From Gudongella oleilytica (GTDB taxonomy: Bacteria > Bacillota > Clostridia > Tissierellales > Tissierellaceae): a stretch of 64,000 nucleotides of DNA. Positions within the stretch are counted from its first letter, which is position 1. Each line of letters opens with the position of its first letter. Shown here piece by piece: positions 593 through 16,147 of this stretch. Below the pieces are notes generated by a model that did no database searches, was not told where the DNA came from, and saw only the letters and a program-made list of their open reading frames with translations. The translations under genes were made by a program, and so were the position numbers. The stretch spans positions 744,001-808,000 of the forward strand of contig NZ_CP035130.1 in the NCBI RefSeq assembly GCF_004101785.1, given 5' to 3'.

Positions 593-2293
593 TTATTTTA
601 GTCTTCTGTAGAGGGTTCTTAGGCTGATACCCAGTTCTTCAGCGGTTTTGATCTTCCCATTCATATCCCAGCCATTTTTATCCAATGCAGATATGATTAT
701 CGATGACTCGCTTTTGGATAGCTTAGAACGAAGATCTGACTCTAATTCGCAGTTACTGAATATGCGTGCCGGCAGACTTGTCAGATTTATTCTGGAGGTC
801 TCCTCCATATTCATAGCATATTCTATTGAATTCTCAAGCTCCCTGACATTCCCTGGCCAGGAGTAGTCCATCATAGCCTCTAAAGCCAGATCATCGATTC
901 CCAACAATCTTTTTGAAAGCTTTGAGTTCATAGCCTTGATAAAATGGTCGATCAGAATGGGGATGTCTGATTTCCTTTCTCTAAGCGGCGGAAGATGGAT
1001 CGGGACCACATTTAATCTGTAGAACAGATCCTCCCTGAATTTGCCTTCGCTCATCAATAGCTCAAGATCCTGGTTCGTTGCTGCTATTATTCTCACATTC
1101 AACGGGATGTTTGTAATGCTGCCCAGTCTTTGTATAACTCCATCCTGCAGGAATCTCAAGAGCTTAGCCTGGGAATGATGAGGAAGCTCGCCTATCTCAT
1201 CAAGAAAGACTGTCCCATTATTTGCCAATTCAAGTATTCCTGGCTTACCTCTTTTCCTGGCTCCTGTAAATGCTCCCTCCTCGTAACCGAATAGCTCAGA
1301 TTCAAAAAGGCTCTCGGGAATATTTGCGCAATTGACCGGAATAAACGGCTTATTGCTGCGGTTGCTGGTAAAGTGGATCGCTTTTGCTGCTATTTCCTTG
1401 CCGGTACCTGATTCGCCTGTTATAAGGACCGATGAAGGCGACGAGGATATTTTATCTATTATCCTTTTAACCTCCATAAGCTTAGGATCCCGGGTGATTA
1501 TTCTATCAAGATAGCTTGCTGAAGGAGACCTTTTCAGGGCTTCGCCATCCCGTTTATCAAACCGCAGTACATAGCCCTCGATTCCATTTTCAGTTGATAG
1601 CGGAGTAGAGAATACCTCCCCGCTGAATCCTTCAAAGACCAAGCTTTTGCTGGAGGGGTATGACGATCCGAAGATCCAGCCTGAAAACTCCTGTGGAAAT
1701 ATCATTCCAAGACTTTGGGTGTAGAGGTCGCAATACGAGAGAAGCTCCTGTGTGCCGTCATCCCAGTGGAGCAGATATCCATTTCTGTCAATGACCATGT
1801 AATTCATTCCTGATTCCCTGATCAGATGCTCAATTGCCTTGCTTAGGATCCCTGGAGTACTTCTTGCAACTTCATTGTGTGCATACATGGAGATGAGGTT
1901 TGACATATAACCCAGTATCTCCATATATTTATGTAAATTTTCCTCGATCAGGGCATGCCCCTCTTGAGTGAAGGAAGTCATGCTGACAACCCCGATGGGC
2001 TGGCCATCCAGCTTCACGCAGGACAGTATTTCAATAGTTGATGGACAGTTGTTGGCAAAACGGCAACCGATGCAGGACTTCATAAGCCCAGGCTTATTGA
2101 CGACGACATTTCCCAAGCTTAGGACCTCCTCTATGGAGGCGGTATGTACACTTTGACCTTTTCTTTTTAGATAAACACCGGTGCTGCTGACAAGCTCTGC
2201 CTCTGTATCAAATATCGCGTATTCCATATTAGTCAGAGTGGTCATAGTCGAGATTATGTCATTAAGGTTGTTTTTGATTGAATTCAGGTTCAT
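593..2293 (-). CDS. Sigma-54-dependent transcriptional activator with Cys-rich N-terminal sensor region
   Basis: A 566-residue bacterial enhancer-binding protein. The AAA+ domain shows Walker A GESGTGKE (about residue 295), the sigma-54 contact loop GAFTGA, Walker B FLDEIGE and arginine-finger-region FREDLFYRLN. The C-terminus is a Fis-type helix-turn-helix (AEELGISLRTLYRRLK). The N-terminal 250 residues contain CIGCRFANNC plus a further Cys, a pattern that could bind metal or sense redox, followed by a PAS-like segment. Overall layout resembles PrdR-type regulators of amino acid reductases, but the signal is unknown. It is divergent from the operon at 2509, which has a sigma-54 promoter, so that operon is its likely target. 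Its own Shine-Dalgarno is AAGGAG just upstream. Confidence 0.9.
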   Translation of the reverse strand: MNLNSIKNNLNDIISTMTTLTNMEYAIFDTEAELVSSTGVYLKRKGQSVHTASIEEVLSLGNVVVNKPGLMKSCIGCRFANNCPSTIEILSCVKLDGQPIGVVSMTSFTQEGHALIEENLHKYMEILGYMSNLISMYAHNEVARSTPGILSKAIEHLIRESGMNYMVIDRNGYLLHWDDGTQELLSYCDLYTQSLGMIFPQEFSGWIFGSSYPSSKSLVFEGFSGEVFSTPLSTENGIEGYVLRFDKRDGEALKRSPSASYLDRIITRDPKLMEVKRIIDKISSSPSSVLITGESGTGKEIAAKAIHFTSNRSNKPFIPVNCANIPESLFESELFGYEEGAFTGARKRGKPGILELANNGTVFLDEIGELPHHSQAKLLRFLQDGVIQRLGSITNIPLNVRIIAATNQDLELLMSEGKFREDLFYRLNVVPIHLPPLRERKSDIPILIDHFIKAMNSKLSKRLLGIDDLALEAMMDYSWPGNVRELENSIEYAMNMEETSRINLTSLPARIFSNCELESDLRSKLSKSESSIIISALDKNGWDMNGKIKTAEELGISLRTLYRRLK

Positions 2294-2448: not shown

Positions 2449-2467
2449 TTGGCATGGGAAATGCAAT
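2449..2467 (+). promoter_or_regulatory. Sigma-54 (-24/-12) promoter of the SDR/GcvP-like operon
   Basis: TTGGCATGGGAAATGCAAT contains the invariant GG (2451-2452) and GC (2463-2464) separated by exactly ten bases, in a good match to the TTGGCAC-N5-TTGCA consensus. Transcription would start near 2476, about 33 bases before the chosen start codon at 2509 and upstream of its AAAGGAGG ribosome site. A sigma-54 activator gene is divergently placed next to it. Confidence 0.8.
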
Positions 2468-2508: not shown

Positions 2509-3285
2509 ATGTATAATCCATTGGATTTTACCGGAAAGGTTGTAGTTATCTCAGGTGGAGCTTCAGGTATAGGTCTTGGGACAGGGAAGCTGTTTGCAAA
2601 GCATGGTGCATCTGTGGTTCTTCTTGACATAAATGAGAGCCAGGGTGGGAAGGCTGTTGAGGAGATTGCAGCCGAAGGCAATAAGGCAATTTTTATGAAG
2701 TGTGATGTTACAAATGAGGAGAATGTAAGCTCAGTAATTAATAGCATCGATGAAAAATATGGCAAAATCGACGTTCTTTTCAACAACGCCGGCGTGACTG
2801 TAAGAAAAACTGTGGTGGATCTAAGCGAAAAGGAATGGGATTTCGTCCTTGGCGTCGGACTTAAGGGAACATTCCTTCTTTCAAAATACACCATCCCCGT
2901 AATGGCAAGAAATGGCGGAGGAAGCATAGTAAACACCGGCTCCGGCTGGGGTTTGAAGGGTGGAGACAAAGCGGCAGCATACTGTGCCGTCAAGGGTGGC
3001 ATTGTAAATCTAACCCGGGCGATGGCGATCGATCACGGTCCACAAAATATAAGAGTTAATTCAGTAAATCCCGGGGATACGGATACAGCCATGCTAAGAG
3101 ATGAGGGGAAGCAGCTTGGAGAAGTCGAGATAGACAAGTTCCTTGCCGATTCTGCAAAGGGCAGGCCGCTTGAAAGACTTGGGACACCTCTGGATATTGC
3201 AAAGGCGGTACTGTTTTTAAGCAGCGATATGGCTTCGTGGATAACGGGAGCCGCACTGGTTGTGGACGGCGGCGGAATAGCATAA
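2509..3285 (+). CDS. SDR-family NAD(P)-dependent oxidoreductase
   Basis: A 258-residue classical short-chain dehydrogenase. The cofactor motif SGGASGIG lies near residue 14, NNAG near 89, and the catalytic YxxxK is YCAVK, with an upstream Ser in NTGSGWG. The C-terminal WITGAALVVDGG is typical of the family. The ATG at 2509 was chosen because AAAGGAGG lies 8 bases upstream; the reading frame stays open 60 bases further, but those codons overlap the sigma-54 promoter and cannot be translated from it. It is the first gene of the operon, 17 bases before the GcvPA-like gene. Substrate is unknown; context suggests oxidation of a hydroxy acid or amino-acid-derived alcohol. Confidence 0.9.
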   Translation: MYNPLDFTGKVVVISGGASGIGLGTGKLFAKHGASVVLLDINESQGGKAVEEIAAEGNKAIFMKCDVTNEENVSSVINSIDEKYGKIDVLFNNAGVTVRKTVVDLSEKEWDFVLGVGLKGTFLLSKYTIPVMARNGGGSIVNTGSGWGLKGGDKAAAYCAVKGGIVNLTRAMAIDHGPQNIRVNSVNPGDTDTAMLRDEGKQLGEVEIDKFLADSAKGRPLERLGTPLDIAKAVLFLSSDMASWITGAALVVDGGGIA

Positions 3286-3302
3286 AAGGGAGGAAAAGGA
3301 TA

Positions 3303-4706
3303 ATGAAAGACTATGGATTTAAAAACCATCCGTACATACCAAATTCCGGAGCTGAGGTCCAGAAGAAAATGCTGGATTATCTTGGATTGAAATCTCTCGA
3401 GGACCTTCATGCTGAGATCCCAGAGGAGCTTAAGCTTAACAGACCTCTTGATCTTCCAAAGCCATATGGTTCAGAGTATGAGTTAAGGAGGGCGGTCGAG
3501 AAGCTGCTGTCCAAAAACATGACAGCCAAGGAATACTTAAACTTTTTAGGAGCCGGATGCTGGCAGCACTATGTACCAGCTATATGCGATGAAGTAAACA
3601 GCAGATCAGAGTTTTTAACTGCATATGCTGGTGAGCCGTACAACGATCACGGGAGATTTCAAACCTTATTTGAATATGAGTCGCTGGTTGCGGAACTGTT
3701 GGACATGGAGGTAGTGAACGTTCCCACATTCGACTGGGGACAGGCAGCGGCGACATCGATAAGAATGGCTTCCAGAATGACCGGAAGGGGAGGGGCTCTT
3801 GTAGTTGGTACCATCGATCCTGACAGATCGATGATAATAGAAAACTATTGCGACCCGGGAGTTAAGATAAGTAAACTGGCATACGATGAAAAAACCGGAA
3901 TGATGGACCTTGAGGATCTTAAGGTGAAGCTATCCTCCAATATTGCAGCTGTATACTTTGAAAACCCATCATTCCTTGGCTTCCTTGAGACCAAAGGAAG
4001 CGAGATATCAAGACTGGCACATGAAGCTGGAGCAGTATCTATCGTAGGGGTAGACCCAAGCAGCCTTGGAGTGATCGAACCTCCTTCAGCATATGGAGCT
4101 GATATAATCTGTGGTGATCTTCAACCACTGGGGATGCATATGAACTATGGCGGCGGGCAATCAGGATTTATTTCCACAAGAAACGAGGAACGCTTTGTCA
4201 TGGAGTTCCCATCAAGATTGTTCGGTGTGGCACCGACAATTGTAGAGGGAGAGTACGGATTTGGAGATGTTGCCTACGAAAGGACATCCTTTGGAAACCT
4301 CAGGGAAAAGGGCAAGGAGTACGTCGGCACCCAAACAGCGCTTTTAGGCATAACTGCAGGGGTATACCTTTCAACCATGGGTCCAAAGGGAATGGAGGAG
4401 CTTGGACAAAACATAATCCAGAAGTCCCAATATACGATCAAGGAACTTTCAGAGTTAAAGGGCGTTGTCGGCTCAAGGTTTGAAGGTTTCAGCTTCAAGG
4501 AGTTCGTAGTCGATTTCAATGGTACAGGAAAAACTGTGGAGGAGATAAACGAAGCCTTGCTTCAAAAGGGAATATTCGGAGGCAAAGACCTGTCAAAGGC
4601 CTTCCCTGAGATGGGGCAGTGCGCTCTATATTGTGTAACAGAGGTACACATGAAGGAAGATATCGACAGGCTGGTTTCTGCAATCAAAGAAATCGTTGAA
4701 GAATAA
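3303..4706 (+). CDS. Divergent glycine dehydrogenase subunit 1-like (GcvPA-like) protein
   Basis: A 467-residue relative of the alpha subunit of glycine decarboxylase (P protein). Family features include YIPN near residue 11, FLGAG-x3-HY near 81-90, and the ordering of the PLP fold-type I domain. Positions that are normally highly conserved differ: the segment usually read TPYQPEISQG is AGEPYNDHGR (about residues 109-118). This argues that the protein is not the housekeeping glycine decarboxylase. The start at 3303 follows GGGAGG by 9 bases. The partner GcvPB-like gene begins 21 bases downstream. No GcvT or GcvH gene lies nearby. The substrate is unknown; a PLP-dependent decarboxylase or lyase acting on another amino acid is possible. 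Confidence 0.8.
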   Translation: MKDYGFKNHPYIPNSGAEVQKKMLDYLGLKSLEDLHAEIPEELKLNRPLDLPKPYGSEYELRRAVEKLLSKNMTAKEYLNFLGAGCWQHYVPAICDEVNSRSEFLTAYAGEPYNDHGRFQTLFEYESLVAELLDMEVVNVPTFDWGQAAATSIRMASRMTGRGGALVVGTIDPDRSMIIENYCDPGVKISKLAYDEKTGMMDLEDLKVKLSSNIAAVYFENPSFLGFLETKGSEISRLAHEAGAVSIVGVDPSSLGVIEPPSAYGADIICGDLQPLGMHMNYGGGQSGFISTRNEERFVMEFPSRLFGVAPTIVEGEYGFGDVAYERTSFGNLREKGKEYVGTQTALLGITAGVYLSTMGPKGMEELGQNIIQKSQYTIKELSELKGVVGSRFEGFSFKEFVVDFNGTGKTVEEINEALLQKGIFGGKDLSKAFPEMGQCALYCVTEVHMKEDIDRLVSAIKEIVEE

Positions 4707-4727
4707 TCCATAGAAAGGACTGATATC

Positions 4728-6290
4728 ATGAAGCGGATAATAAGAAAAAATAGAGTTAGAAGCTTTCATCAGGCTAGGTGGAATGAACCTATAATTTTTG
4801 AGCTTGGTTCAGCCGGAGAGCGTGGAATACTCGTACCCAAGGCTGAGGAAGAAATAGTTGAGAAGGTTGGAAATGGCTTTGACAGCATTCCAGCAGGAAT
4901 GAGAAGGAGCGTCCCGCTTAAGCTTCCCGAGATAAACCAGAAAAGAGTACTTATGCACTACCTGAGACTCTCCCAGGAGACTCTTGGTGGAAATATAAAT
5001 ATTGAAATAGGTCAGGGAACGTGTACTGTCAAATACAACCCGGTCGTAAATGATAAGCTGGCCGCATCGGAGAAGATGTCAGAGCTTCATCCTTTACAGG
5101 ATACATCAACTACCCAGGGGATCCTTGAGATAATCCACAGGACCGATCTGATGATGCGAGAGATATCAGGCATGGATCACTTCAGCTTCCAGGCAGCAGG
5201 TGGATCTCAGGCTACTATGACTATGGCATCGATCGTAAGGATGTACCACAGGCTTAGAGGAGAGGAAGAACAGAGAGACGAAATAATAACTACGGTTTAT
5301 TCTCACCCATCAGATGCTGCAGCTCCTGCTCTTAAGGGCTATAAGATAATAACCATTATGGCTGATGAAAATGGCAGGCCGGACTACGAGGCTTTTAAGG
5401 CTGCTGTAAGTGAGAGGACTGCCGCTTTTGTAGTTGCCAATCCCGAGGATACCGGTATATTCAATCCCAGGATCAAGGAATTTACCGATTTGGTTACAAA
5501 AGCGGGCGGTTTGAACTGCTACGACCAGGCAAATGCCAATGGTTTGTATGGCGTTGCCAGAGCGAGAGAAGCAGGCTTCCATATGTGTTATTTCAATCTT
5601 CATAAATCCTTTGGGACACCACATGGATGTGGAGGGCCTGGTTCAGGAGCAGTCGGGGTTATCTCTGAGCTGAGAGATTTTCTGCCTAAGCCGCTTGTTG
5701 AATTCGACGGTGAAAAGTACTTTCTGGATTATGACATAAAAAACAGCATTGGAAAGGTTAGAGCCTTCATAGGGACTCCTCAGGTCGTCCTCAAGGCTTA
5801 CAGCTGGATAATGAGTCTTGGAGCCGAGGGCCTTTACGAGGTGGCGAAGGTTGCTTCCTTAAATAACGTATACCTCATAAAGAGGCTGCTTGAATACAAA
5901 GGGCTGGAGCTTCCATACAGAGAGGATGTCCAGAGGATCGAGCAGGCAAGGTATACCATGGAAAAGATTGCGAAGGATACTGGATTCAGCTCCGGAGATA
6001 TTGCAAGACGAGTAATGGATTTCGGTATGCACATATGGTCAAGCCACCATCCATTCTATATTCCTGACCCATTGACACTTGAGCCTACAGAAACTCCATC
6101 CATGGAGGACCTTGAGGAGTATGTCGAGACCCTGCACCATATATTAGGCGAAGCTTACAATAATCCTGAAATAATCAAGAGTGCACCAAACAATAGCACT
6201 ATCCATATGGTGGATGAATCCAGTATGGACGACCCTGATCAGTGGTGTCCTACCTGGAGGGTCTACCAGGAAAAAACCAAAGTAGAATAA
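4728..6290 (+). CDS. Divergent glycine dehydrogenase subunit 2-like (GcvPB-like) PLP protein
   Basis: A 520-residue homologue of the catalytic beta subunit of the glycine cleavage P protein. The PLP lysine is Lys293 in NLHKSFGTPHGCGGPG, matching the NLHKTF-STPHGGGGPG region of the family, and GTCTVKYNP (about 97-105) matches the SCTMKYNP motif. The normally conserved SAHGTNPASA is instead YSHPSDAAAP (191-200), and QPAAGA becomes QAAGGS. The PLP site is kept while the substrate and partner surface has changed. Adjacent to the GcvPA-like gene, so the two probably form one enzyme. Without a lipoyl H protein in the cluster, a reaction other than glycine oxidation is plausible. What that reaction is cannot be read from sequence. 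Confidence 0.8.
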   Translation: MKRIIRKNRVRSFHQARWNEPIIFELGSAGERGILVPKAEEEIVEKVGNGFDSIPAGMRRSVPLKLPEINQKRVLMHYLRLSQETLGGNINIEIGQGTCTVKYNPVVNDKLAASEKMSELHPLQDTSTTQGILEIIHRTDLMMREISGMDHFSFQAAGGSQATMTMASIVRMYHRLRGEEEQRDEIITTVYSHPSDAAAPALKGYKIITIMADENGRPDYEAFKAAVSERTAAFVVANPEDTGIFNPRIKEFTDLVTKAGGLNCYDQANANGLYGVARAREAGFHMCYFNLHKSFGTPHGCGGPGSGAVGVISELRDFLPKPLVEFDGEKYFLDYDIKNSIGKVRAFIGTPQVVLKAYSWIMSLGAEGLYEVAKVASLNNVYLIKRLLEYKGLELPYREDVQRIEQARYTMEKIAKDTGFSSGDIARRVMDFGMHIWSSHHPFYIPDPLTLEPTETPSMEDLEEYVETLHHILGEAYNNPEIIKSAPNNSTIHMVDESSMDDPDQWCPTWRVYQEKTKVE

Positions 6291-6304
6291 ACGGAAGTGA
6301 TCCT

Positions 6305-7417
6305 ATGATGAAGATAGGGCTTATAGTTAACCCGATCGCCGGTATGGGTGGCAGAGTAGGGCTTAAGGGAACAGACGGTGAAGACACACTTATTAGGGCT
6401 ATCCAGATGGGTGCAATATCCGAGGCTCCCGAAAAGACTATAAAGGCATTACAACAGCTGCTTCCATTAAAGGAGCAGCTGCTGGTGTTTACCTGCTCAG
6501 GCGATATGGGTGAAAATGAAACAGTGCAAGCTGGCCTGCATTATGAAGTTGTTTACATAAGTGATAGGAATACGACATCCGATGATACAGTTCTCGCTGC
6601 TTCAAGTATGAAGGAGCTGGGAATATCCTTGTTGATATTTGCGGGAGGAGATGGGACTGCCAGGGATATTTATAGGGCTATAGGTCAGGAAGTGCCAGTC
6701 ATAGGCATCCCTGCAGGAGTCAAGATCCATTCACCTGTCTATGGGAACACACCAAAAGCCGCTGGAAAGCTGGCTGCTGAGTTCTTAAGCGGCAGGCAGG
6801 TCCAGCTTGTCGATGAGGAGGTCATAGATATCGATGAGGAGGCCTATAGAAATGATGTCGTCATGACTCAGCTATATGGTTACTTGAAGGTACCGGTGAT
6901 CGACAAGTGGATACAGAATAAAAAGGCTCCCACACCTCTTTCGGACAAAGCATCTCAAATGTCTATAGCATTGGATATTGCAGATAATATAGTGAAGGAT
7001 ATATTTTATTTGATAGGCCCCGGAAGTACTACGAAAGCTCTGATGGATGTCTTGAAACTTAAAAAGACGCTTCTTGGAGTAGATATCATAAGGAACAGGG
7101 AGCTGGTAAAGGCAGACTGCAACGAAGATGAGATACTCCGGATAATTGGAGACTCTGAGACGGAGCTTATTATAACTCCCACCGGCGGGCAAGGATATCT
7201 TCTGGGAAGGGGGAATCAGCAGCTAAGCCCGAAGGTCCTGGGCAAAATTGGAAAGAGAAATATTACCATTATTGCGACAGAGGGAAAGCTTATACAGCTT
7301 AACGGCAATCCACTCAGAGTCTATACTGGAGATGAAGGTCTGGATAAAGAGCTGTCCGGTTATTACAAGGTTCGGATAGGCTATGGAATGTCCAGGATGT
7401 ATAAGGTGGAAGGATAG
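6305..7417 (+). CDS. ATP-NAD kinase-like / AcoX-like protein
   Basis: A 370-residue protein of the NAD-kinase-like superfamily. The N-terminus MKIGLIVNPIAGMGG and the nucleotide motif AGGDGTARD (about 118) are diagnostic, and TPTGGQGYLLGRGNQ lies in the C-terminal half. These proteins often accompany 2-oxoacid or acetoin dehydrogenase operons, where AcoX has no proven role. A second family member at 52930 lies in the aco operon of this same window, also under sigma-54 control. The ATG at 6305 follows GGAAGTGA closely; the longer reading frame overlaps the preceding gene and was not used. Four bases separate its stop from the ribosome-site region of the next gene. Confidence 0.8.
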   Translation: MMKIGLIVNPIAGMGGRVGLKGTDGEDTLIRAIQMGAISEAPEKTIKALQQLLPLKEQLLVFTCSGDMGENETVQAGLHYEVVYISDRNTTSDDTVLAASSMKELGISLLIFAGGDGTARDIYRAIGQEVPVIGIPAGVKIHSPVYGNTPKAAGKLAAEFLSGRQVQLVDEEVIDIDEEAYRNDVVMTQLYGYLKVPVIDKWIQNKKAPTPLSDKASQMSIALDIADNIVKDIFYLIGPGSTTKALMDVLKLKKTLLGVDIIRNRELVKADCNEDEILRIIGDSETELIITPTGGQGYLLGRGNQQLSPKVLGKIGKRNITIIATEGKLIQLNGNPLRVYTGDEGLDKELSGYYKVRIGYGMSRMYKVEG

Positions 7418-7429
7418 GAGGTGTTTGGA

Positions 7430-8704
7430 GTGTTGTTTTCAGAAATTGACAAGTTGATCACAGACCAGACTGGAGAGATGATCGGGTTTTTAAGAAAGCT
7501 TGTTGCTTGCAGGCTTCCTTCGACGGATGAATCTGAAGGGGATAACGCTCAGCAAATTGTCGAGAGCTTTCTTAAAGATCTTGGTTTTTCAGTTACCAGG
7601 GACGAGCCGATTGAAATCACCGAGGATGACGGATTGAACTATGGATCCAGGTATAGTGTAGTGGGTTTACTGAAGGGAAAGGGCGATGGGAAATCCATTG
7701 CCATCAACTCGCATGCTGACGTAGTTGGGGTTGGAGATATCGACAGATGGAAGCATGACCCAAGAGGCTGTGAAATAGTCGACGGCAAGATATATGGAAG
7801 GGGTGTCGTCGATGCCAGAGGGTGCCTTACAGCATATCTCTTTGCTTTAAAAGCACTGATAGATTCAGGAGTATCATTTAAAGGGGATATCATCTTTCAA
7901 TCAGTCGGCGACGAGGAGATCCTTGGTAAGGGATCAGAAAAGCTTGTAAAGGTAGGGTACACCGCAGATGCAGTTCTGGTCGGTGAACCTACAAACCTTG
8001 ATTTTTGCCCGGCAACGAGGGGTGCAGGTCAGTTTATTATCGATGTCTATGGAAGGACGACACACTCAGGTGTCGCATATGAGGGTGAGAACGCAATACT
8101 AAAGGCCATACCTATTATTGAAGCTCTCCAGAGCATGCAGTACAGGCTGGACAAGGAGCATATGCACGTTCTCTGGGAGAATTATCCTATCGCCCACGTA
8201 GCAAATATTGCACTTATTGAAGGCGGCGAATCACCAAGCAAAGTACCTTCAAGATGCAGGATATCAGGTTTAGCAGGATGTATAGCTGGAGAGACTCTGG
8301 AGGATGTTTATCGTTGGGTCGATGAAACCATAAAAGAGGCCTCAGAGAAGGACAACTGGCTTAAGGAGAATCCCCCGAAGCTGACATGGGCAGATATCAT
8401 GCAGTTTGAACCCTCTGTTAGCAGACTTGATCACGATTTTCTTGGATTAGGTGAAAAATGCCAGAAAGAAGTGCTTGGACACAGCACAAAACCCAGGGCA
8501 TTTACTGCCGTCAGTGATCTCAGGTATTTTATAGAGGATGGCAAGGGCTTGGGAGCAAACTTTGGACCGGGAAGCATCAATCAGGCTCATTCCTTTGATG
8601 AGCACCTTGATATCGATGAGCTCATCGCTGCAGTAAGGATAATCGCAAGATTCGTCTACCGCTGGACAAATACGGAAAGAAGTGCTAATAATAATATAAA
8701 ATGA
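7430..8704 (+). CDS. M20-family metallohydrolase (ArgE/DapE/ACY1 type)
   Basis: A 424-residue zinc amidohydrolase or peptidase. Metal and catalytic motifs visible are NSHADVV (first metal His and the Asp two residues on), YGRGVVDARG (bridging Asp) and QSVGDEEILG (catalytic Glu pair); the dimerisation-domain His is in TTHSGVAYEG. Likely substrates are N-acyl amino acids or small peptides. GTG at 7430 is preferred because AGGAGG ends 7 bases upstream; the earlier GTG at 7421 lies inside that ribosome site. It is 19 bases before an aminotransferase gene, which suggests that the freed amino acid is transaminated. Confidence 0.85.
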   Translation: MLFSEIDKLITDQTGEMIGFLRKLVACRLPSTDESEGDNAQQIVESFLKDLGFSVTRDEPIEITEDDGLNYGSRYSVVGLLKGKGDGKSIAINSHADVVGVGDIDRWKHDPRGCEIVDGKIYGRGVVDARGCLTAYLFALKALIDSGVSFKGDIIFQSVGDEEILGKGSEKLVKVGYTADAVLVGEPTNLDFCPATRGAGQFIIDVYGRTTHSGVAYEGENAILKAIPIIEALQSMQYRLDKEHMHVLWENYPIAHVANIALIEGGESPSKVPSRCRISGLAGCIAGETLEDVYRWVDETIKEASEKDNWLKENPPKLTWADIMQFEPSVSRLDHDFLGLGEKCQKEVLGHSTKPRAFTAVSDLRYFIEDGKGLGANFGPGSINQAHSFDEHLDIDELIAAVRIIARFVYRWTNTERSANNNIK

Positions 8705-8723
8705 ACTATAGGGAGGTAGAGCG

Positions 8724-9905
8724 ATGAAATTGCCTGTCAACAGAATGAAAAATATCAGCTTCAGCGGAGGAATAATCGAGATACTTAAAAAAGCATCTGA
8801 ACTGGAAAAGAGTGGGAAGGATATCATCCATCTGGAAATGGGAAGGCCTGACTTCTCATCTCCTGATGTTGCAATCGAAGCTGCCATACAGTCGCTTAGA
8901 AAGGGGCAGGTACATTACAGCGACATCGCCGGAGTTGAGGAGCTTAGAGTTGCGATCTCCGAGGATATGAAGGCGAATATGGGCTTGGATTACGATCCAT
9001 ATAAGGAGATAGTTGTAGGCGTAGGCTCAGTGGAGGGTCTGTACGTTGCAATGATCAGTCTATTGGACGTCGGTGACGAGATAATAATGCTTACGCCATG
9101 CTTTCCGGCCTATTTTGACCAGGCTTATCTTGCAGGTGTAGTCCCTGTTGCAGTCCCATTGAAATTCAGTAATGGATTCAAGATAGACCCGGATGATATA
9201 AAAAACAGCATAACTGACAAAACCAGGATGATAATGATAAACACTCCGAATAATCCAACCGGAATGGTATTCACTAAGGAAGATCTGGATATATTAGCAG
9301 ATATCGCGAAGGAATACGACCTTTATGTGGTTTCTGATGAAACCTACAGCTCGTTTATATATGACGGTGAACACATATCCATAGCTAAGCTGCCTGAAAT
9401 GAAGGAGCGGACTGTCGTTGTGAATACAACATCAAAGGCATACTCTATGACAGGTTGGAGAATCGGCTACATGGCTTCCTCACCTGAAATAGCAAAATAT
9501 CTGAATAAATCGCACCAGAACATAACTACCTGCCCTACAACCTTTGCACAGTATGGAGCTGTCGCAGCCTATAGGGAGGGGAAACCCTGGACTGATATGA
9601 TGGTGGCTGAATTCAGAAAAAGAAGAGATCTGGTACTTAAGTATTACGACGAGATCGAGGGAATAGATTACATAACCCCTGAGGGAGCTTTCTATGTCTT
9701 TGCCTGCATCGATGGCCTTGGGGCAAAGGCTGACGAGTTCTGCGACTATATCCTCAACGAAGCAGGAGTATCCATTGTACCGGGAGATGCCTTCAGACCA
9801 GAAGAGGGCGCCAATTTTGTAAGGATCGCTTATTCGAATTCCTTTGAGATCATTGAAGAAGCCATGAAGAGGATCAAGGCAGCAGTGGAAAAACTGAAGG
9901 CTTAG
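8724..9905 (+). CDS. Class I/II pyridoxal-phosphate aminotransferase
   Basis: A 393-residue fold-type I aminotransferase of the AspC/AspB type. PLP-binding Lys lies in TTSKAYSMTGWRIGY, with NTPNNPTG near residue 172, VVSDETY near 206 and the substrate-carboxylate Arg near the C-terminus (FVRIAYS). Start ATG follows GGGAGG by 7 bases. It lies between an M20 hydrolase and an amidohydrolase in what appears to be one transcript. It would convert an amino acid to its 2-oxo acid; specificity is not predictable. Confidence 0.9.
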   Translation: MKLPVNRMKNISFSGGIIEILKKASELEKSGKDIIHLEMGRPDFSSPDVAIEAAIQSLRKGQVHYSDIAGVEELRVAISEDMKANMGLDYDPYKEIVVGVGSVEGLYVAMISLLDVGDEIIMLTPCFPAYFDQAYLAGVVPVAVPLKFSNGFKIDPDDIKNSITDKTRMIMINTPNNPTGMVFTKEDLDILADIAKEYDLYVVSDETYSSFIYDGEHISIAKLPEMKERTVVVNTTSKAYSMTGWRIGYMASSPEIAKYLNKSHQNITTCPTTFAQYGAVAAYREGKPWTDMMVAEFRKRRDLVLKYYDEIEGIDYITPEGAFYVFACIDGLGAKADEFCDYILNEAGVSIVPGDAFRPEEGANFVRIAYSNSFEIIEEAMKRIKAAVEKLKA

Positions 9906-9924
9906 TCTTGAAAGGAAGACAAAA

Positions 9925-11562
9925 ATGGATATCATACTGATAAACGGCAAAATAAGGACAATGGACAACAAGCGAAGCATTGTAGAGGCAGTGGCGATTG
10001 CTGACGGAAAGATTTCAGCTGTCGGCTCTATTGATGAAATGCTTAAATTAAAAAAAGAGAATACAAAGGTATTAGATTTAAACCTCAAAACAGTACTTCC
10101 GGGCTTTAACGACAGTCATGTTCATTTACTGAACTATGGCTACAGCCTGACAAAGGTAGACTGCAGCGGGGCAATATCCATAGATGAGGTCGTGGAGAGA
10201 GGTAAGACGTTCATATCAGAAAAGAGTATCAAATCTGGTGAGTGGGTCCTTGGAAGAGGCTGGAACGACATAATGTTTAAGGAGAAAAGAGAGCTTAACA
10301 GATATGATCTGGACAGGATTTCTCCAGACCACCCGATCTCTTTTACGAGAATTTGTGAGCATATCACAGTTGCAAACAGCAAAGCCCTTGAGCTATGCAA
10401 AATATCGTCCGGTACTCCTCAGCCTGTTGGCGGCCAATTTGATGTAGATGAGAAGGGTGAACCTACTGGAATATTCAGGGAAGCTGCCAGATATATGATT
10501 TATAAAAATATTCCTGATGTAAATAAGGAAGACATAAAAACGATGCTGAGGAAGGTCATGGAAAAAGCTTCCTCACTTGGGATCACATCGGTCCAGACCG
10601 ATGATTTTGATACGTTTGCAAACAGAGATTACGACACGATAATCCAGGCTTATAGAGAGCTGGCAAAAGAAGGTGAGCTGCCGGTTAGAGTTTACCAGCA
10701 GTGTATTTTGCCTGAGCCCGAGAGACTGGTGACTTTTCTTGAAAAGGGCTATAAAACGGGGCAGGGCGATTCATTCTACCGTATCGGACCCCTTAAGCTT
10801 CTAACTGATGGATCACTTGGAGCTGGAACAGCTTACTTGAAGGAGCCTTATTCCGACGAGCCTGACACAAAAGGAATAAGCGTATTCACCCAGGAAGAGC
10901 TGGATCATTTGGTCACTACCGCTCATAAGGGCGGGATGCAGATCTTGACGCACGCTATAGGGGACGGGGCAATGGAGATGTGCTTTAGAAGCTTTGAAAG
11001 AGCTCTCGAATCCATGCCTAAGGATGATCCAAGGTTTGGCATAGTCCACTTGCAAATCACTGACGAGGAGCTGCTCAGGAATTTCAGGGAACAAAGTGTA
11101 ATAGCATTTGCTGAGCCAATATGCGTAAACAATGATCTTCACATGGCCGAGAGCAGGGTAGGTCATGAGAGGATAATAAACAGCTATAAATACAGGACAT
11201 TGCTTGATAAAGGGGTAAGGATGTGCATATCATCAGACTGCCCTGTCGATTCACTTGACCCTATGGACAGTCTGTATGTGGCCACTACAAGAAAGGATTA
11301 CAGCGGATACCCTGAGGATGGATGGTACCCTGAGGAAAAACTAACTATGGATCAGGCTGTGTATTGCTTTACTATGGGTTCAGCTTACGCAAGCTTCGAG
11401 GAGGATATAAAGGGATCCATAGAACCAGGCAAGTTAGCTGATATCGTAGTGCTTTCAGATGACCCATTTGAGTCTTATGAACAGGAGATCAGAAGGATCA
11501 AGCCTGTTATGACAATAATGAACGGTGACATTTATTACGGGATCCACATTTTGGCATCTTAA
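9925..11562 (+). CDS. Amidohydrolase, YtcJ-like (amidohydrolase_3 family)
   Basis: A 545-residue metal-dependent hydrolase of the amidohydrolase superfamily. The N-terminal metal pair is NDSHVHL (about residue 58), later metal ligands include LTHAIGDGAM and the Asp in ISSDCPVDS, and the closing PGKLADIVVLSDDP is characteristic. Homologues act on amides, carbamates or cyclic ureas; substrate here is unknown. Start ATG follows GAAAGGAAG. It ends the tightly spaced run that begins at the sigma-54 promoter; a 60-base gap follows. Confidence 0.85.
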   Translation: MDIILINGKIRTMDNKRSIVEAVAIADGKISAVGSIDEMLKLKKENTKVLDLNLKTVLPGFNDSHVHLLNYGYSLTKVDCSGAISIDEVVERGKTFISEKSIKSGEWVLGRGWNDIMFKEKRELNRYDLDRISPDHPISFTRICEHITVANSKALELCKISSGTPQPVGGQFDVDEKGEPTGIFREAARYMIYKNIPDVNKEDIKTMLRKVMEKASSLGITSVQTDDFDTFANRDYDTIIQAYRELAKEGELPVRVYQQCILPEPERLVTFLEKGYKTGQGDSFYRIGPLKLLTDGSLGAGTAYLKEPYSDEPDTKGISVFTQEELDHLVTTAHKGGMQILTHAIGDGAMEMCFRSFERALESMPKDDPRFGIVHLQITDEELLRNFREQSVIAFAEPICVNNDLHMAESRVGHERIINSYKYRTLLDKGVRMCISSDCPVDSLDPMDSLYVATTRKDYSGYPEDGWYPEEKLTMDQAVYCFTMGSAYASFEEDIKGSIEPGKLADIVVLSDDPFESYEQEIRRIKPVMTIMNGDIYYGIHILAS

Positions 11563-11622
11563 TGTGTTACAATAGTAACGAACGAAATCGTTTCTTATAG
11601 CTGCCTTGAAAGGAGATATGAT

Positions 11623-12258
11623 ATGGATGCAGATCTATTAAGCAGATACATCATCGCTCTCACTAATTTATATGGGATTGTCCCTGATAAAAAGGTAGTT
11701 GAAGTATACAATCTTTATAATATCCCAAGAGCCAATCTGGGAGATCTGGAGATGTCAGCGTCGAGAATGAACCTGGCTGCTCATCTTGTAACAAGGAAGG
11801 CAGGCTACTTCATCAAGGATTATTTGATCTTTGGGGACAGGTATCTGGAGCTTCTGGAGGAACAGGGAGATATAGACTTCTATATTCCAGGACCGGAGGA
11901 GATACTTCGATACGAGGATGAGTTTTACTTCCAGTCTTTGAAGGAGTTCAAAGACTTTGAAAGCTGTCTCCATGATTGCTTTGAACTAGAACCATCTACA
12001 CATAAGCAATTAGTTGAGTTACTTATGATGGACTGCCAGCTTGGGTTCGACATAAAGAGCATCCTTTCTGAGCTGGAAAGGAAAAGACTCAATTTTGAAT
12101 CCATAGTCGACAGGAATAATTTCATGCATGCTTTTAAGAAAATTAGCAGAAGTTCAAGAAAATGGCAATATCGGGGTCATACATATAATGAACTTTATTC
12201 AGGAAAGAGAGTTAATGGGGTAAGGGAGAAATTCAGAAAAATATTGAAGGGTTCCTGA
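11623..12258 (+). CDS. Hypothetical protein, charged, no recognised domain
   Basis: A 211-residue soluble protein with a strong ribosome site (AAAGGAGATATG) and codon use like its neighbours. It is helical and acidic in the middle (residues about 80-130) and basic at the C-terminus (RSSRKWQYRGHTYNELYSGKR), which could contact nucleic acid or membrane. No signal peptide, transmembrane segment or Cys cluster was seen. It lies between the amidohydrolase and an M20D hydrolase, 31 bases before the latter. I do not recognise the family and assign no function. Confidence 0.75.
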   Translation: MDADLLSRYIIALTNLYGIVPDKKVVEVYNLYNIPRANLGDLEMSASRMNLAAHLVTRKAGYFIKDYLIFGDRYLELLEEQGDIDFYIPGPEEILRYEDEFYFQSLKEFKDFESCLHDCFELEPSTHKQLVELLMMDCQLGFDIKSILSELERKRLNFESIVDRNNFMHAFKKISRSSRKWQYRGHTYNELYSGKRVNGVREKFRKILKGS

Positions 12259-12289: not shown

Positions 12290-13465
12290 ATGACCGATTA
12301 TCTAAAGCAGGCTAAAAACATAGAGAGTGAAATAATTGCCAATAGAAGGACTATACACACATTTGCTGAGATCGGATTCCAGCTGGATAAGACTGTCGAA
12401 TATGTCGAAGCAAAGCTTAAGGAATACGGGCTCGAGCCCAAAAGATCAGGCAAGGCAGGAGTAACAGCATTGGTCGGAAAACCTGGGAATACGATCCTTT
12501 TAAGAGCTGACATGGATGCATTGCCTATGAAGGAGGAAACCGGGCTGGAATTTGCATCTGAGACAGGAAATTGCCATTCCTGCGGTCATGACTGTCACAC
12601 AGCCATGTTATTGGGAGCAGCAAAGCTACTCAAGGATAACGAGGATGAGCTTGATGGTACAGTAAAACTAATGTTTCAGCCGGCTGAAGAGCTTCTTGCC
12701 GGAGCGGTCGATATGATCGGGGCAGGGATCCTGGAGGACCCAAAGGTTGACGCTGCATTGGCGATCCATATATACGTTGGAAATGAGCTTTCCAAAAGCG
12801 GCACTGTTGCATACGCTAAAGGGCCTGCGCTGTTCTCCGGAGATGCCATTAAGATAACCATCAAAGGGCAGAATGCCCATGGCAGCACACCGGAAAAGGG
12901 TATTGATGCAATCAATATAGCAGCACATACGGTAATAGCACTGCAGGAGATAATAGCAAGGGAAACCTCGTGCATGGATAACTCAGTTGTCCTTGTGGGA
13001 AAGATATACGGTGGAGATACTGTCAATACACTTGCAGGGAACGCTGTTCTTGAGGTTTCTGTGCGAGCTACGACCCAGGATAACAGGGAATTTCTGATCC
13101 AAAGGATAAGGGAGATAGCAGAAAGTGTTGCAGGAACCTTTAGGGGAGAAGCAATTGTTGAGCACCAGTATGGCATGGGACCATTGTACAATGATCCTGC
13201 ATTGAGCGAAGATATGGCAGGATATTGTGAGGAACTGCTTGGAGAAGGCACTACCCTTAGAATACCTTTAGCCGTGGGTACTGAGGACTTTACTTCCATA
13301 GCGTCAAGGGTTCCTTCAGTAATGCTCAACCTGGGTATGGGAAGCATAGACGAAGGCTATACCTACTCCATGCATAATCCATCAATGGTTGTAAACGAAG
13401 AGGTTCTTCATAAGGGAGCCGCGATTTATGCTTATGGAGCAATGAGATACCTGAAGAAAGTATAA
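12290..13465 (+). CDS. M20D-family amidohydrolase (N-acyl-amino-acid / hippurate hydrolase type)
   Basis: A 391-residue zinc amidohydrolase. Diagnostic motifs are LLRADMDALPM (about 69-79), HSCGHDCHTAMLLGAA (about 97-112), FQPAEE (about 130) and NAHGSTPEKGID (about 200). The family hydrolyses N-acyl amino acids, hippurate or indole-acyl conjugates. Start ATG follows GGGAGG. It is the second of three M20-type hydrolases between 7.4 and 17.6 kb; the T-box leader begins about 75 bases after its stop, so it is probably transcribed separately from the transporter. Confidence 0.9.
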   Translation: MTDYLKQAKNIESEIIANRRTIHTFAEIGFQLDKTVEYVEAKLKEYGLEPKRSGKAGVTALVGKPGNTILLRADMDALPMKEETGLEFASETGNCHSCGHDCHTAMLLGAAKLLKDNEDELDGTVKLMFQPAEELLAGAVDMIGAGILEDPKVDAALAIHIYVGNELSKSGTVAYAKGPALFSGDAIKITIKGQNAHGSTPEKGIDAINIAAHTVIALQEIIARETSCMDNSVVLVGKIYGGDTVNTLAGNAVLEVSVRATTQDNREFLIQRIREIAESVAGTFRGEAIVEHQYGMGPLYNDPALSEDMAGYCEELLGEGTTLRIPLAVGTEDFTSIASRVPSVMLNLGMGSIDEGYTYSMHNPSMVVNEEVLHKGAAIYAYGAMRYLKKV

Positions 13466-13836: not shown

Positions 13837-14706
13837 ATGGGAAAAATCAATAAAAAGAACCTAATGATTTTATTAACGGCAGCAATGATCACCTTAACAG
13901 CAACAGCTTGCAATCAAGGCAGCAAAGAAAGCTCTGAGGCACCAGCTAACAGACTTGAGGCAATTATGGAGAGAGGATATATTGAGGTCGCCACAGAGCC
14001 TTATTTTGCACCATATGAATTCATCGATCCAAGCAAGAAGGGTGACGAGCAATATGTCGGCAGTGATATGGAGCTGGCGAAGTATATAGCAGAGGAATTA
14101 GGAGTTGAGCTTAGAATTGTGCCTTTAGAGTTTTCAGCAGTTCTTGGGAGTATTACTGAAGGCAAGTACGACCTTGCCATATCCGCTCTATCATATACAC
14201 CTGCAAGAGCAGAAGCAATGAATATGTCCAAGGGTTATTATTTCGCTGAGAATGCCCCAGGTCATGGCCTACTTATAAGAAAAGCGGATAAGGGCATCAT
14301 AAACGGTCCTGACGATCTCTCAGATAAAATAGTAGTTGCACAAAGTGGATCGCTGCAAGAATTGTTTGTCAACGAACAGGTTCCTAAGTTCAAGGAATTC
14401 AAGAGGGTATCGGCAACAACAGATGGCTTTCTAATGGTACAGGAAGGTAAGGCGGATGCCTGTGCCGCATCAATTCCCATGGCACAGCTTTATGTCGAGG
14501 CAAATCCGGATGCAAATTTGATGGTTGTCGAGGGGTTTGAATTCGTGATGGACGAGGAAACCGCCGGAACCAGGATCGGGATCCCAAAGGGCGAGGATGA
14601 GCTGACTGAAAAAATCAACTCAATAATAGATGAAGTACTTGAATCAGGAATCTTTGAGGATTGGCATATTGAGTATACAGAGTATGCAAAGAGCTTGGGT
14701 CTGTAG
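13837..14706 (+). CDS. Amino acid ABC transporter substrate-binding lipoprotein
   Basis: A 289-residue extracytoplasmic solute-binding protein of the polar amino acid family (SBP_bac_3). The N-terminus has KK, a hydrophobic stretch and a lipobox ending TATAC at about residue 24, so it should be lipid-anchored. Family motifs are YIEVATEPYFAPYEF, DMELAKYIAEELG and the ligand-binding GKYDLAISALSYTPAR. ATG at 13837 is chosen because AGGAGGAGAGG lies just upstream and because longer versions would start inside the T-box terminator. With permease and ATPase genes downstream it forms a three-gene importer; the His T-box makes histidine or a related compound the best guess. Confidence 0.9.
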   Translation: MGKINKKNLMILLTAAMITLTATACNQGSKESSEAPANRLEAIMERGYIEVATEPYFAPYEFIDPSKKGDEQYVGSDMELAKYIAEELGVELRIVPLEFSAVLGSITEGKYDLAISALSYTPARAEAMNMSKGYYFAENAPGHGLLIRKADKGIINGPDDLSDKIVVAQSGSLQELFVNEQVPKFKEFKRVSATTDGFLMVQEGKADACAASIPMAQLYVEANPDANLMVVEGFEFVMDEETAGTRIGIPKGEDELTEKINSIIDEVLESGIFEDWHIEYTEYAKSLGL

Positions 14707-14751
14707 TGATCCAATATTTATAAAATGCTATCAGTGAAGGAGAAGCTGTGA

Positions 14752-15414
14752 ATGATCGACACAATTATAAAGCTATGGAGCAAATATGATTATGTATATA
14801 TTGACGGCTTGTTGGGAACTCTCTGGCTGGCGGCGGTAACTGTTATGGCAGCCACCGCAGTCGGGACCATTATAGCACTGATGAGGCTTTCAGGGGTCAG
14901 ACTATTGGATAGGTTCGCCGGGCTTTATATTTGTGTTCTCAGAGGCACGCCTATCCTTCTTCAGCTTTATTTTTTCTGGCTGACACTGCCAAAAATATCA
15001 CCTATAACTTTGTCAGATACTGCGTGTATAGTCATAGCTTTGATCGTGAATGCCAGTGCATATGTTGCTGAGGTCATACGAGCTGGTATCCAGGCTGTGG
15101 ACAAAGGGCAGAAAGAGGCTGCCAAGAGCCTGGGTTTAAGTGACAGAAACACATTCAGATATATTGTGTTCCCCCAAGCCATTAAGAATATACTTCCGGC
15201 ACTCGGCAACGAATACATTACTATGGTCAAACAAACATCATTGGCTTCAGTATTTTTCGTTCAGGAGCTTATGACTTCGTACAGGACTGTACAATCAGCC
15301 ACCTTTCTTGCGATCCCTTCGCTGGTAATAGTTGGGGTGATTTACCTGGTGGTAACTACGATCCTGTCAAAAGGACTTGATCTATTTGAAAGGAGGCTCC
15401 AGAGAAATGAGTGA
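14752..15414 (+). CDS. Polar amino acid ABC transporter permease
   Basis: A 220-residue inner-membrane permease of the HisM/GlnP family with about five hydrophobic segments. The N-terminal GLLGTLWLA and the [10 protein letters not shown] segment are typical, and the coupling EAA loop is [30 protein letters not shown] shortened here to its key EAA-x3-G core near residue 122. The start follows GAAGGAGAAGC. Its last 8 bases overlap the ATPase gene, showing translational coupling. It presumably forms a homodimer with the ATPase at 15407. Confidence 0.92.
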
Positions 15415-16147
15415 AAGTAAGGAGCTGATCCATGTAGTCGATTTGTGCAAGCAGTTTGGTGAACTGAAGGTTCTTAAAAATATTACTGAGACCATACACG
15501 AGGGAGAGGTCGTATCAATAATTGGACCATCCGGGAGCGGAAAGAGCACATTTTTGAGATGTCTTAATTTGCTGGAAAAACCGACCAGCGGCAAGGTGAT
15601 TTTCAAGGGGGTAGACCTTGCAGATAAAAACATCGATGTGGACAAGCACAGACAAAAGATAGGCATGGTCTTCCAGCTTTTCAATGTTTTCCCACACATG
15701 ACAGTTCTTGAAAATATAACTCTTGCTCCAATGCTGGAAAGAAAGATTTCAAAGACTCAGGCCGAAGATCAGGCGGTTGAACTTCTTAAAAGAGTAGGTC
15801 TTCTGGATAAAAAGGATGAGTATCCAACCAGACTGTCCGGAGGACAAAAACAAAGGCTTGCCATCGTGAGAGCCATGGCAATGGAACCTGATGTAATGCT
15901 GTTCGACGAGCCAACCAGCGCTCTGGATCCGGAAATGGTCAAGGAGGTGCTCGATGTCATCAAGTCGCTTGTCGTAGCCGGTATGACTATCGTCATAGTG
16001 ACACATGAGATGGCATTTGCAAGAGAAGTTAGCGACAGGGTTCTGTTTATGGCAGATGGAGAGATAGTTGAGCAGGGAAGTCCCGATGTCTTGTTTTTTG
16101 ACCCAAAGAATGACAGGACGAAGGATTTTCTTAGCAAAGTTCTATGA
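15407..16147 (+). CDS. Polar amino acid ABC transporter ATP-binding protein
   Basis: A 246-residue ABC ATPase of the HisP/GlnQ family. Walker A is GPSGSGKS (about residue 41), the Q loop is [14 protein letters not shown], the signature is LSGGQKQR, Walker B is [14 protein letters not shown] and the switch His is in [11 protein letters not shown] at 15407 follows AGGAGGCTCC and gives the family's usual length. It overlaps the permease gene. It completes the T-box-controlled importer and is followed 16 bases later by an M20 hydrolase that is probably in the same transcript. Confidence 0.93.

Follow-up and report, generated by a model that had tools for sequence, protein, structure and literature searches.

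Among described enzymes, the nearest counterparts of the genes studied here are the P-proteins of glycine cleavage, exemplified by the GcvPA/GcvPB enzyme of Thermus (1wyt/1wyu). For the human P-protein GLDC, an excerpt of the published account (PMC7259800) names Y161 and Y164 among the active-site residues and assigns I372, R373 and K376 to the H-protein interface of a docking model. Here we describe a GcvPA/GcvPB-like pair, PA and PB, encoded in a 64,000-nucleotide stretch of the Gudongella oleilytica genome (contig NZ_CP035130.1, positions 744,001 to 808,000; hereafter the window). An initial annotation had placed the pair at 3303-6290 and read it, naming no particular substrate, as an enzyme derived from a P-protein and acting outside glycine cleavage. 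Both open reading frames (ORFs) are confirmed at these positions, and the proposed role is supported by trees, motif loss and carrier genomes without GcvT and a convincing GcvH. We propose that PA and PB form an H-protein-independent heterodimeric pyridoxal phosphate (PLP) enzyme that, together with a short-chain dehydrogenase/reductase (SDR), would break down a lysine-type amino acid bearing a hydroxyl group, with 5-hydroxylysine as the likeliest candidate, and we give this proposal an even chance of being right. The two subunits are encoded as follows, with a gap of 21 bp between them; the start of PA was set at 3303, the longest ORF beginning at a GTG at 3237.

3303..4706, + strand: divergent GcvPA-like subunit (PA), 467 aa; Pfam GDC-P, 1.6e-55
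4728..6290, + strand: divergent GcvPB-like subunit (PB), 520 aa; NCBIfam PRK04366, 9.7e-155

Window PA/PB is a paralogue, as the genome has a second, canonical P-protein. On the single contig of 2,356,157 bases, gcvT, gcvH and canonical gcvPA and gcvPB are clustered at 1.803-1.807 Mb. Window PB shares 37-39% identity with the canonical PB of the same genome and window PA about 32% with the canonical PA. The operon around the pair had been described as lacking gcvT and gcvH, and this is borne out, both being encoded about 1.06 Mb away on the same contig. The canonical set also removes an objection raised in the initial annotation, namely that the pair might be the only P-protein of this genome, serving a distant gcvT and gcvH. 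Automatic annotation would name the pair glycine dehydrogenase because both subunits exceed the NCBIfam equivalog cut-offs (478 versus 364 bits for GcvPA, 516 versus 441 bits for GcvPB). Plasmid-borne relatives are annotated in this way.

In trees of both subunits the pair falls outside the canonical glycine decarboxylase clade. The divergent rows lie on one side of a branch with a Shimodaira-Hasegawa-like approximate likelihood ratio test (SH-aLRT) value of 100, both in the PB tree (57 divergent versus 31 canonical rows, branch length 1.84) and in the PA tree (57 versus 28). The divergent PA/PB are solidly a deep, separate clade. These are quick maximum-likelihood trees, unrooted and built with no outgroup, and they include few outlying canonical rows, some of them long-branched; duplicate rows were excluded, the divergent rows were thinned to 57 of 94 for PB and 57 of 93 for PA, and the long GcvP of locus L134 was left out of the PA tree and of the motif counts. 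Because of the long canonical branches and the missing outgroup, the trees show a separation and not a direction of descent.

Window PB retains NLHKSFGTPHG with Lys293 as the PLP lysine. TPYQPEISQG is replaced by AG-EPYNDHGR in PA, and SAHGTNPA by YSHPSDAAA in PB. The initial annotation had reported these replacements and the kept lysine; they are confirmed and, by row counts, fixed across the clade. Among PA rows, PYQ[PA]E is found in 27 of the 28 canonical and none of the 93 divergent ones; among PB rows, SAHG[TS]NP is found in 28 of the 30 canonical and none of the 94 divergent ones. Two further PA motifs, QHIRR (27 of 28 canonical rows) and [AS]TSNIC (25 of 28), are likewise found in 0 of 93 divergent rows. 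LHK[ST]F is common to both groups (29 of 30 canonical and 90 of 94 divergent PB rows), and D-x-A-N-x-N is present in all 94 divergent PB rows. These 94 rows also share NP[DEN]D in place of the canonical NP[NS]T, a change seen in none of the 30 canonical rows, and residue 241 of window PB is Asp where canonical rows have Thr. We take GLDC Y161/Y164 and I372/R373/K376 to sit in the YTPYQ and QHIRRDKATSNIC stretches, respectively. On this assignment, the putative glycine-site and H-protein docking motifs are lost in the divergent clade. The top matches of the window pair in a fold search are P-proteins.

The genomes that carry the divergent pair allow a view on its possible partners. A GcvH search of 50 carrier genomes left six without a GCV_H match and four with weak matches only (E 1e-4 to 8e-4), although two of the latter exceed the bit cut-off. 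GcvT, searched in these 10 carriers, is found in none of them. Their top GDC-P matches score 187-213 bits, as divergent proteins do, so canonical gcvP is lacking. Two of the 10 are isolates, Proteocatella sphenisci DSM 23131 and Paenibacillus sp. LHD-117, and the remaining eight are metagenome-assembled genomes (MAGs), in which absence is weaker evidence. Among the other 40 carriers, the best GDC-P match reaches 315-542 bits in 38. Genome G416 has GcvH and a best GDC-P match at the divergent level only (216 bits), and in G424 a divergent-level best match is accompanied by a truncated fragment at the edge of a contig, adjoining its gcvH. Since the motifs are lost and 10 of 50 carriers have no convincing GcvH, no GcvT and no canonical gcvP, we read the pair as a lipoyl-independent relative that does not take part in glycine cleavage. 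It looks as if divergent PA/PB would need no lipoyl partner, at least in some genomes, and the earlier suggestion of an enzyme possibly without lipoyl carrier is strengthened by these 10 carriers.

The same data bear on the view that the pair is a divergent glycine-cleavage P-protein using H- and T-proteins encoded elsewhere. The equivalog scores, the GcvH and GcvT of the window's own genome and the strong GcvH of 40 of the 50 carriers would fit it. With a canonical pair in the same genome, the docking and glycine motifs lost, and 10 carriers without convincing GcvH and all without GcvT, we consider it very improbable. Canonical glycine cleavage with remote partners was rejected on account of the in-genome canonical set and the carriers without GcvT.

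Members of the clade are widespread, occurring in Bacillota, Desulfobacterota, Pseudomonadota, Actinomycetota, haloarchaea and Asgard archaea, and relatives are carried on eight plasmids from alphaproteobacteria, rhodococci and one haloarchaeon. Within the class of the window's genome, relatives nearer to the window than to canonical P-proteins were found in six of 391 members (G000, G141, G020, G269, G364 and, as a partial sequence, G381); a 49% fragment in G240 may make it a seventh. A scan with patterns from this clade gave at least 539 confirmed relatives. The 80 named loci (genome contigs) are the best 80 of these 539, and counts lean toward sequences close to the window; in loci L012-L016 the flanks are short.

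Beyond the pair itself, the window holds the following neighbouring features.

593..2293, - strand: sigma-54-dependent activator; Pfam Sigma54_activat 1.8e-67 plus HTH_8
2450..2465, + strand: putative sigma-54 (-24/-12) promoter element, TGGCATGGGAAATGCA, 1 mismatch to TGGCAYN5TTGCW
2509..3285, + strand: classical SDR dehydrogenase; Pfam adh_short_C2 1.6e-66
6305..7417, + strand: AcoX-like protein with NAD-kinase fold; Pfam NAD_kinase 3.1e-20, NAD_kinase_C 9e-17
7421..8704, + strand: M20 ArgE/DapE-family deacylase; TIGR01910 254.7 bits, cut-off 217.6
8724..9905, + strand: class I/II aminotransferase; Pfam Aminotran_1_2 2.4e-64
9925..11562, + strand: amidohydrolase (Amidohydro_3); Pfam 2e-99
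11623..12258, + strand: 211-aa protein with zero Pfam/NCBIfam matches at E <= 0.001
12290..13465, + strand: M20 amidohydrolase; TIGR01891 287.5 bits, cut-off 153.75
13840..16147, + strand: probable ATP-binding cassette (ABC) transporter of the polar amino-acid type (binding protein, permease, ATPase)

The genes from the SDR through the second M20 protein are all on the + strand and closely packed, followed by a gap of 374 bp before the ABC transporter. The setting given in the initial annotation is confirmed, with its sigma-54 activator, SDR, AcoX-like protein, M20 hydrolase and aminotransferase. The activator is divergent to the SDR-PA-PB cassette and has TF_PrdR as its top NCBIfam match (372 bits, under the cut-off of 795). 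The SDR presumably prefers NAD, judged by its sequence. The top match of the ABC binding protein is the lysine/arginine/ornithine model TIGR01096 (103 bits, below the cut-off of 256), and the permease (14752-15414) and ATPase (15407-16147) are named by sequence and by clustering with like genes of other loci. Relatives of the window amidohydrolase occur in L053, L079, L083 and L108, loci that also contain an NhaC-type transporter.

Much of this arrangement recurs. Searches with tblastn place an SDR on the strand of the pair and at most 400 bp away in 72 of 94 divergent loci, and an AcoX-like gene in 49; we preferred tblastn counts because antisense ORFs hid some SDR and PB genes in an ORF-based map. 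Of the 87 loci with both subunits mapped, 80 have PA and PB no more than 60 bp apart, and all 52 AcoX-like proteins of the loci retain GGDGT. In a first control, canonical loci gave no SDR or AcoX match (0/30), but most of them included just some 0.15 kb of sequence upstream of PA. As the sequence upstream of PA was nearly missing there, the control was repeated with longer stretches, mostly 2-6 kb per side (L174 has 4 bp upstream, L179 0.4 kb downstream), and again no match was found anywhere in the stretch (0/26), which strengthens the cassette link. Among 38 loci with a sigma-54 activator facing the cassette, the intergenic region holds a -24/-12 element with at most one mismatch in 35, 13 of them exact, versus 0 of 38 on the opposite strand of the same regions. 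Across the whole 64 kb window, matches of the 2450-2465 type, with one mismatch, are not above chance. SDR-PA-PB forms the conserved cassette, to which an AcoX-like gene is often added and which a sigma-54 promoter commonly precedes. The constant co-occurrence with SDR and AcoX-like genes that had been envisaged holds as a frequent association, absent from canonical loci, but not as a constant one: the 35 Bacilli loci in which the cassette has sugar or amino-acid genes as its context all lack AcoX. One locus, L155 (G653, 8007-12237), shows the order PA-PB-AcoX followed by a 474-aa protein resembling an amino acid-polyamine-organocation (APC) permease; it has no SDR match, and its PB is only 52% identical to the Neobacillus query.

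The Bacilli contexts provide the clues to a substrate. Of the 35 loci, 29 have a sugar context, with a glycoside hydrolase family 2 (GH2) beta-galactosidase in 28, an MGH1/GH63-like glucosidase in 20, both in 19, and a sugar ABC transporter in most. The remaining six have an amino-acid context, made up of a polar amino-acid ABC transporter and an M20-like hydrolase of 567 aa that is presumably RocB-like. Mapped on the PB tree, the context labels need four changes, at least three of them forced by well-supported branches, a pattern that suggests a single substrate entering by two routes. Among the loci, LysP-like permeases are limited to L077, L091 and L103 (three of the 94; 57-59% identity to E. 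coli LysP) and to L156, where in one genome such a gene (57% to E. coli LysP) immediately follows SDR-PA-PB. The top match of the L101 binding protein is the lysine/arginine/ornithine model, at 161.6 bits and under the cut-off of 256. In L152 (Brevibacillus) and L153, a cluster of glucosidase, GH2 and sugar ABC genes adjoins a polar amino-acid ABC transporter whose binding protein is 31-32% identical to that of L101, the cassette itself lying tens of kb away. As an exception, locus L154 (G618, 2741-10707) combines a sugar ABC transporter, GH2 and a GH63-like glucosidase of lower identity (38%), and the search threshold applied gave no divergent PB in this genome; the locus offers a comparison case for the glycosidases.

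The association between PB and the glucosidase extends to whole genomes. In a single sample of 250 Bacilli genomes, drawn evenly and including G420, the source of both queries, nine encode divergent PB, seven the GH63-type glucosidase and six both. Leaving out G420 weakens this co-occurrence only slightly (8, 6 and 5 of 249; hypergeometric p 4.3e-8, with genomes treated as independent of kinship). A structure model of the glucosidase (pLDDT 86.5, pTM 0.89; MGH1-like in Pfam) has GH63 enzymes among its best matches. These are E. coli YgjK, also in complex with 2-O-alpha-D-glucopyranosyl-alpha-D-galactopyranose (3w7w_B; Z 36.2, 546 residues, root mean square deviation 4.5), Thermus mannosylglycerate hydrolase (Z 36.7) and, further down, endoplasmic reticulum glucosidase I (Z 30.4). 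Action on Glc-alpha1,2-Gal would fit this model, which is not proof, since the fold is shared by trehalases and others and fixes no specificity.

Collagen carries the glycoside Glc-alpha1,2-Gal-hydroxylysine, and to our knowledge hydroxylysine is the sole natural compound that fits both a basic, lysine-like amino acid and a glucosyl-galactosyl glycoside. Because the Bacilli cassettes join either amino-acid transporters, some of them LysP-like, or glucosidase plus beta-galactosidase, we infer that 5-hydroxylysine is the substrate, an assignment that is moderately supported and comes from gene neighbourhood. The chemistry that we propose is speculative. Hydroxylysine would be taken up free or as the collagen glycoside, and the SDR, oxidising a secondary alcohol, would convert the 5-hydroxyl of 5-hydroxylysine to give 5-oxolysine. 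This product would be an aminoketone, H2N-CH2-CO-R, resembling glycine with an acyl group replacing the carboxylate. PA/PB might then hold the amino group on PLP and cleave the C5-C6 bond hydrolytically, yielding glutamate and methylamine. Two enzymes would thereby suffice to reach central metabolism, in keeping with the small cassettes of L093, L098 and L156, which contain little beyond regulator, SDR, PA and PB. On this scheme PA/PB would be an alpha-aminoketone lyase, bacteria would degrade hydroxylysine with two enzymes, and the P-protein fold would support a reaction type independent of lipoyl; this is a tentative idea that is more probably wrong than right.

The main rival to C5-C6 cleavage is a plain decarboxylase, in which the alpha-carboxylate would be removed on PLP, the carbanion protonated and the amine released, with the SDR acting before or after. 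Such an enzyme would need the least change from P-protein chemistry, in keeping with the retained PLP lysine and fold, and in Gemmobacter a primary-amine oxidase is the fourth gene past PB. The altered motifs of the active-site region in both subunits argue against it, as do the small loci named above, which offer no obvious path from an amine to central metabolism; we regard it as possible, though doubtful.

In other lineages the cassette has different partners, which suggests that substrates may differ between subclades. A lipoyl-independent enzyme for another hydroxy amino acid or an amino alcohol, or a set of subclade-specific substrates, would suit the broad taxonomic range and the different partners in alphaproteobacteria and actinobacteria. 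It would also suit the genomes of [Clostridium] ultunense (G397) and of a Desulfobacteraceae MAG (G428), each with three divergent-level GcvPA matches that suggest paralogues with different substrates. Against this stand LysP-like transport and the glucosidase/galactosidase pair in Bacilli, which indicate a basic, glycosylatable amino acid, and we see a modest chance at most that such an alternative is correct. A hydroxyproline cluster near the alphaproteobacterial cassettes was also considered; among the matches listed at E <= 1e-20, the tested DapA-family and FAD proteins had no hydroxyproline-named model. Fructosyl-lysine and galactosyl-hydroxyproline were weighed as substrates and set aside without a gene search.

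Several observations weigh against a lipoyl-independent hydroxylysine enzyme. The glycosidase and LysP links are limited to Bacilli, and the scan of window genes shows no glycosidase. In clostridial and desulfobacterial loci the transporters are of the NhaC, tripartite ATP-independent periplasmic (TRAP) or other types; in those of alphaproteobacteria and actinobacteria the partners are oxidases, acyl-CoA ligases or an amine oxidase, the alphaproteobacterial ones lying near genes for FAD oxidases, DapA-family and IclR proteins; and the three Asgard loci have none of these partners. AcoX has no role in the proposed route. The context labels on the PB tree are also somewhat clustered, 13-16 of 500 shuffles being as low, and the glucosidase model matches a GH37 trehalase with Z 35.6. 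M9 collagenases, whose enrichment would have favoured a collagen source, are not enriched in carriers (matches over the cut-off in 3 of 36 genomes with the cassette and in 15 of the 250 Bacilli, a comparison set that includes some carriers). Strong M9 matches do occur in three of the nine PB-positive sample genomes (G427, G465 and G677), which we do not count as support because G427 and G465 are Brevibacillus and G677 probably is too. With respect to H-protein independence, strong GcvH in 40 carriers means that the pair could use it there, and the Lys matching GLDC K376 appears to be retained in window PA. The structure model of the PA-PB complex (mean pLDDT 71.6, pTM 0.75, active-site loops below 50) permits no residue-level reading.

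Two loci outside the clade's cassettes deserve mention in their own right. A Deinococcus sp. QL22 plasmid (L129, 4040-6933) encodes a GcvPA/GcvPB pair with MOSC and class-III aminotransferase genes as neighbours and no gcvT or gcvH annotated within 9 kb. Its PA lacks QHIRR and TSNIC but has PYQAE, and its PB has SAHGTNP; it is possibly another departure from glycine cleavage. In Vescimonas fastidiosa (L132, 886-3531), the annotated gcvT is unusually long at 2646 bp (881 aa) and possibly a fusion.

Searches of open-access literature, covering titles and abstract openings, yielded no description of the divergent pair, of AcoX beside gcvPAB or of a bacterial hydroxylysine operon. Against existing annotation the clade is new, as NCBIfam equivalogs name its members GcvPA/GcvPB. 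Because curated models give it the name glycine dehydrogenase, predictions of glycine metabolism may be too generous for genomes that have this clade alone. The clade would show that the P-protein fold can function apart from a lipoyl partner, and the hydroxylysine reading, if true, gives a bacterial route for an amino acid of collagen.

A comparison with known systems places the pair closest to GcvPA/GcvPB of Thermus, with which it shares a two-subunit PLP architecture of fold type I, the PLP lysine, D-x-A-N-x-N and 32-33% identity to the 1wyt chains by structural alignment. It differs in belonging to a separate clade without PYQPE, SAHGTNP, QHIRR and TSNIC; the window pair has no adjoining gcvT or gcvH, and divergent pairs are often accompanied by SDR and AcoX-like genes. 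AcoX is a protein of acetoin operons with an NAD-kinase fold. The window AcoX-like protein, with NAD_kinase, NAD_kinase_C and GGDGT, would resemble it in this; its gene differs in adjoining SDR-PA-PB. The proposed chemistry presumably resembles that of threonine dehydrogenase with 2-amino-3-ketobutyrate CoA ligase (KBL), an alpha-oxoamine synthase, in that PLP-dependent cleavage of an aminoketone follows an alcohol dehydrogenase; it differs in that CoA use is not implied and that no KBL-type model is among the family matches of PA/PB. The mammalian hydroxylysine kinase/phosphohydroxylysine phospholyase route, finally, we take to act on the substrate proposed here through different enzymes and different chemistry.

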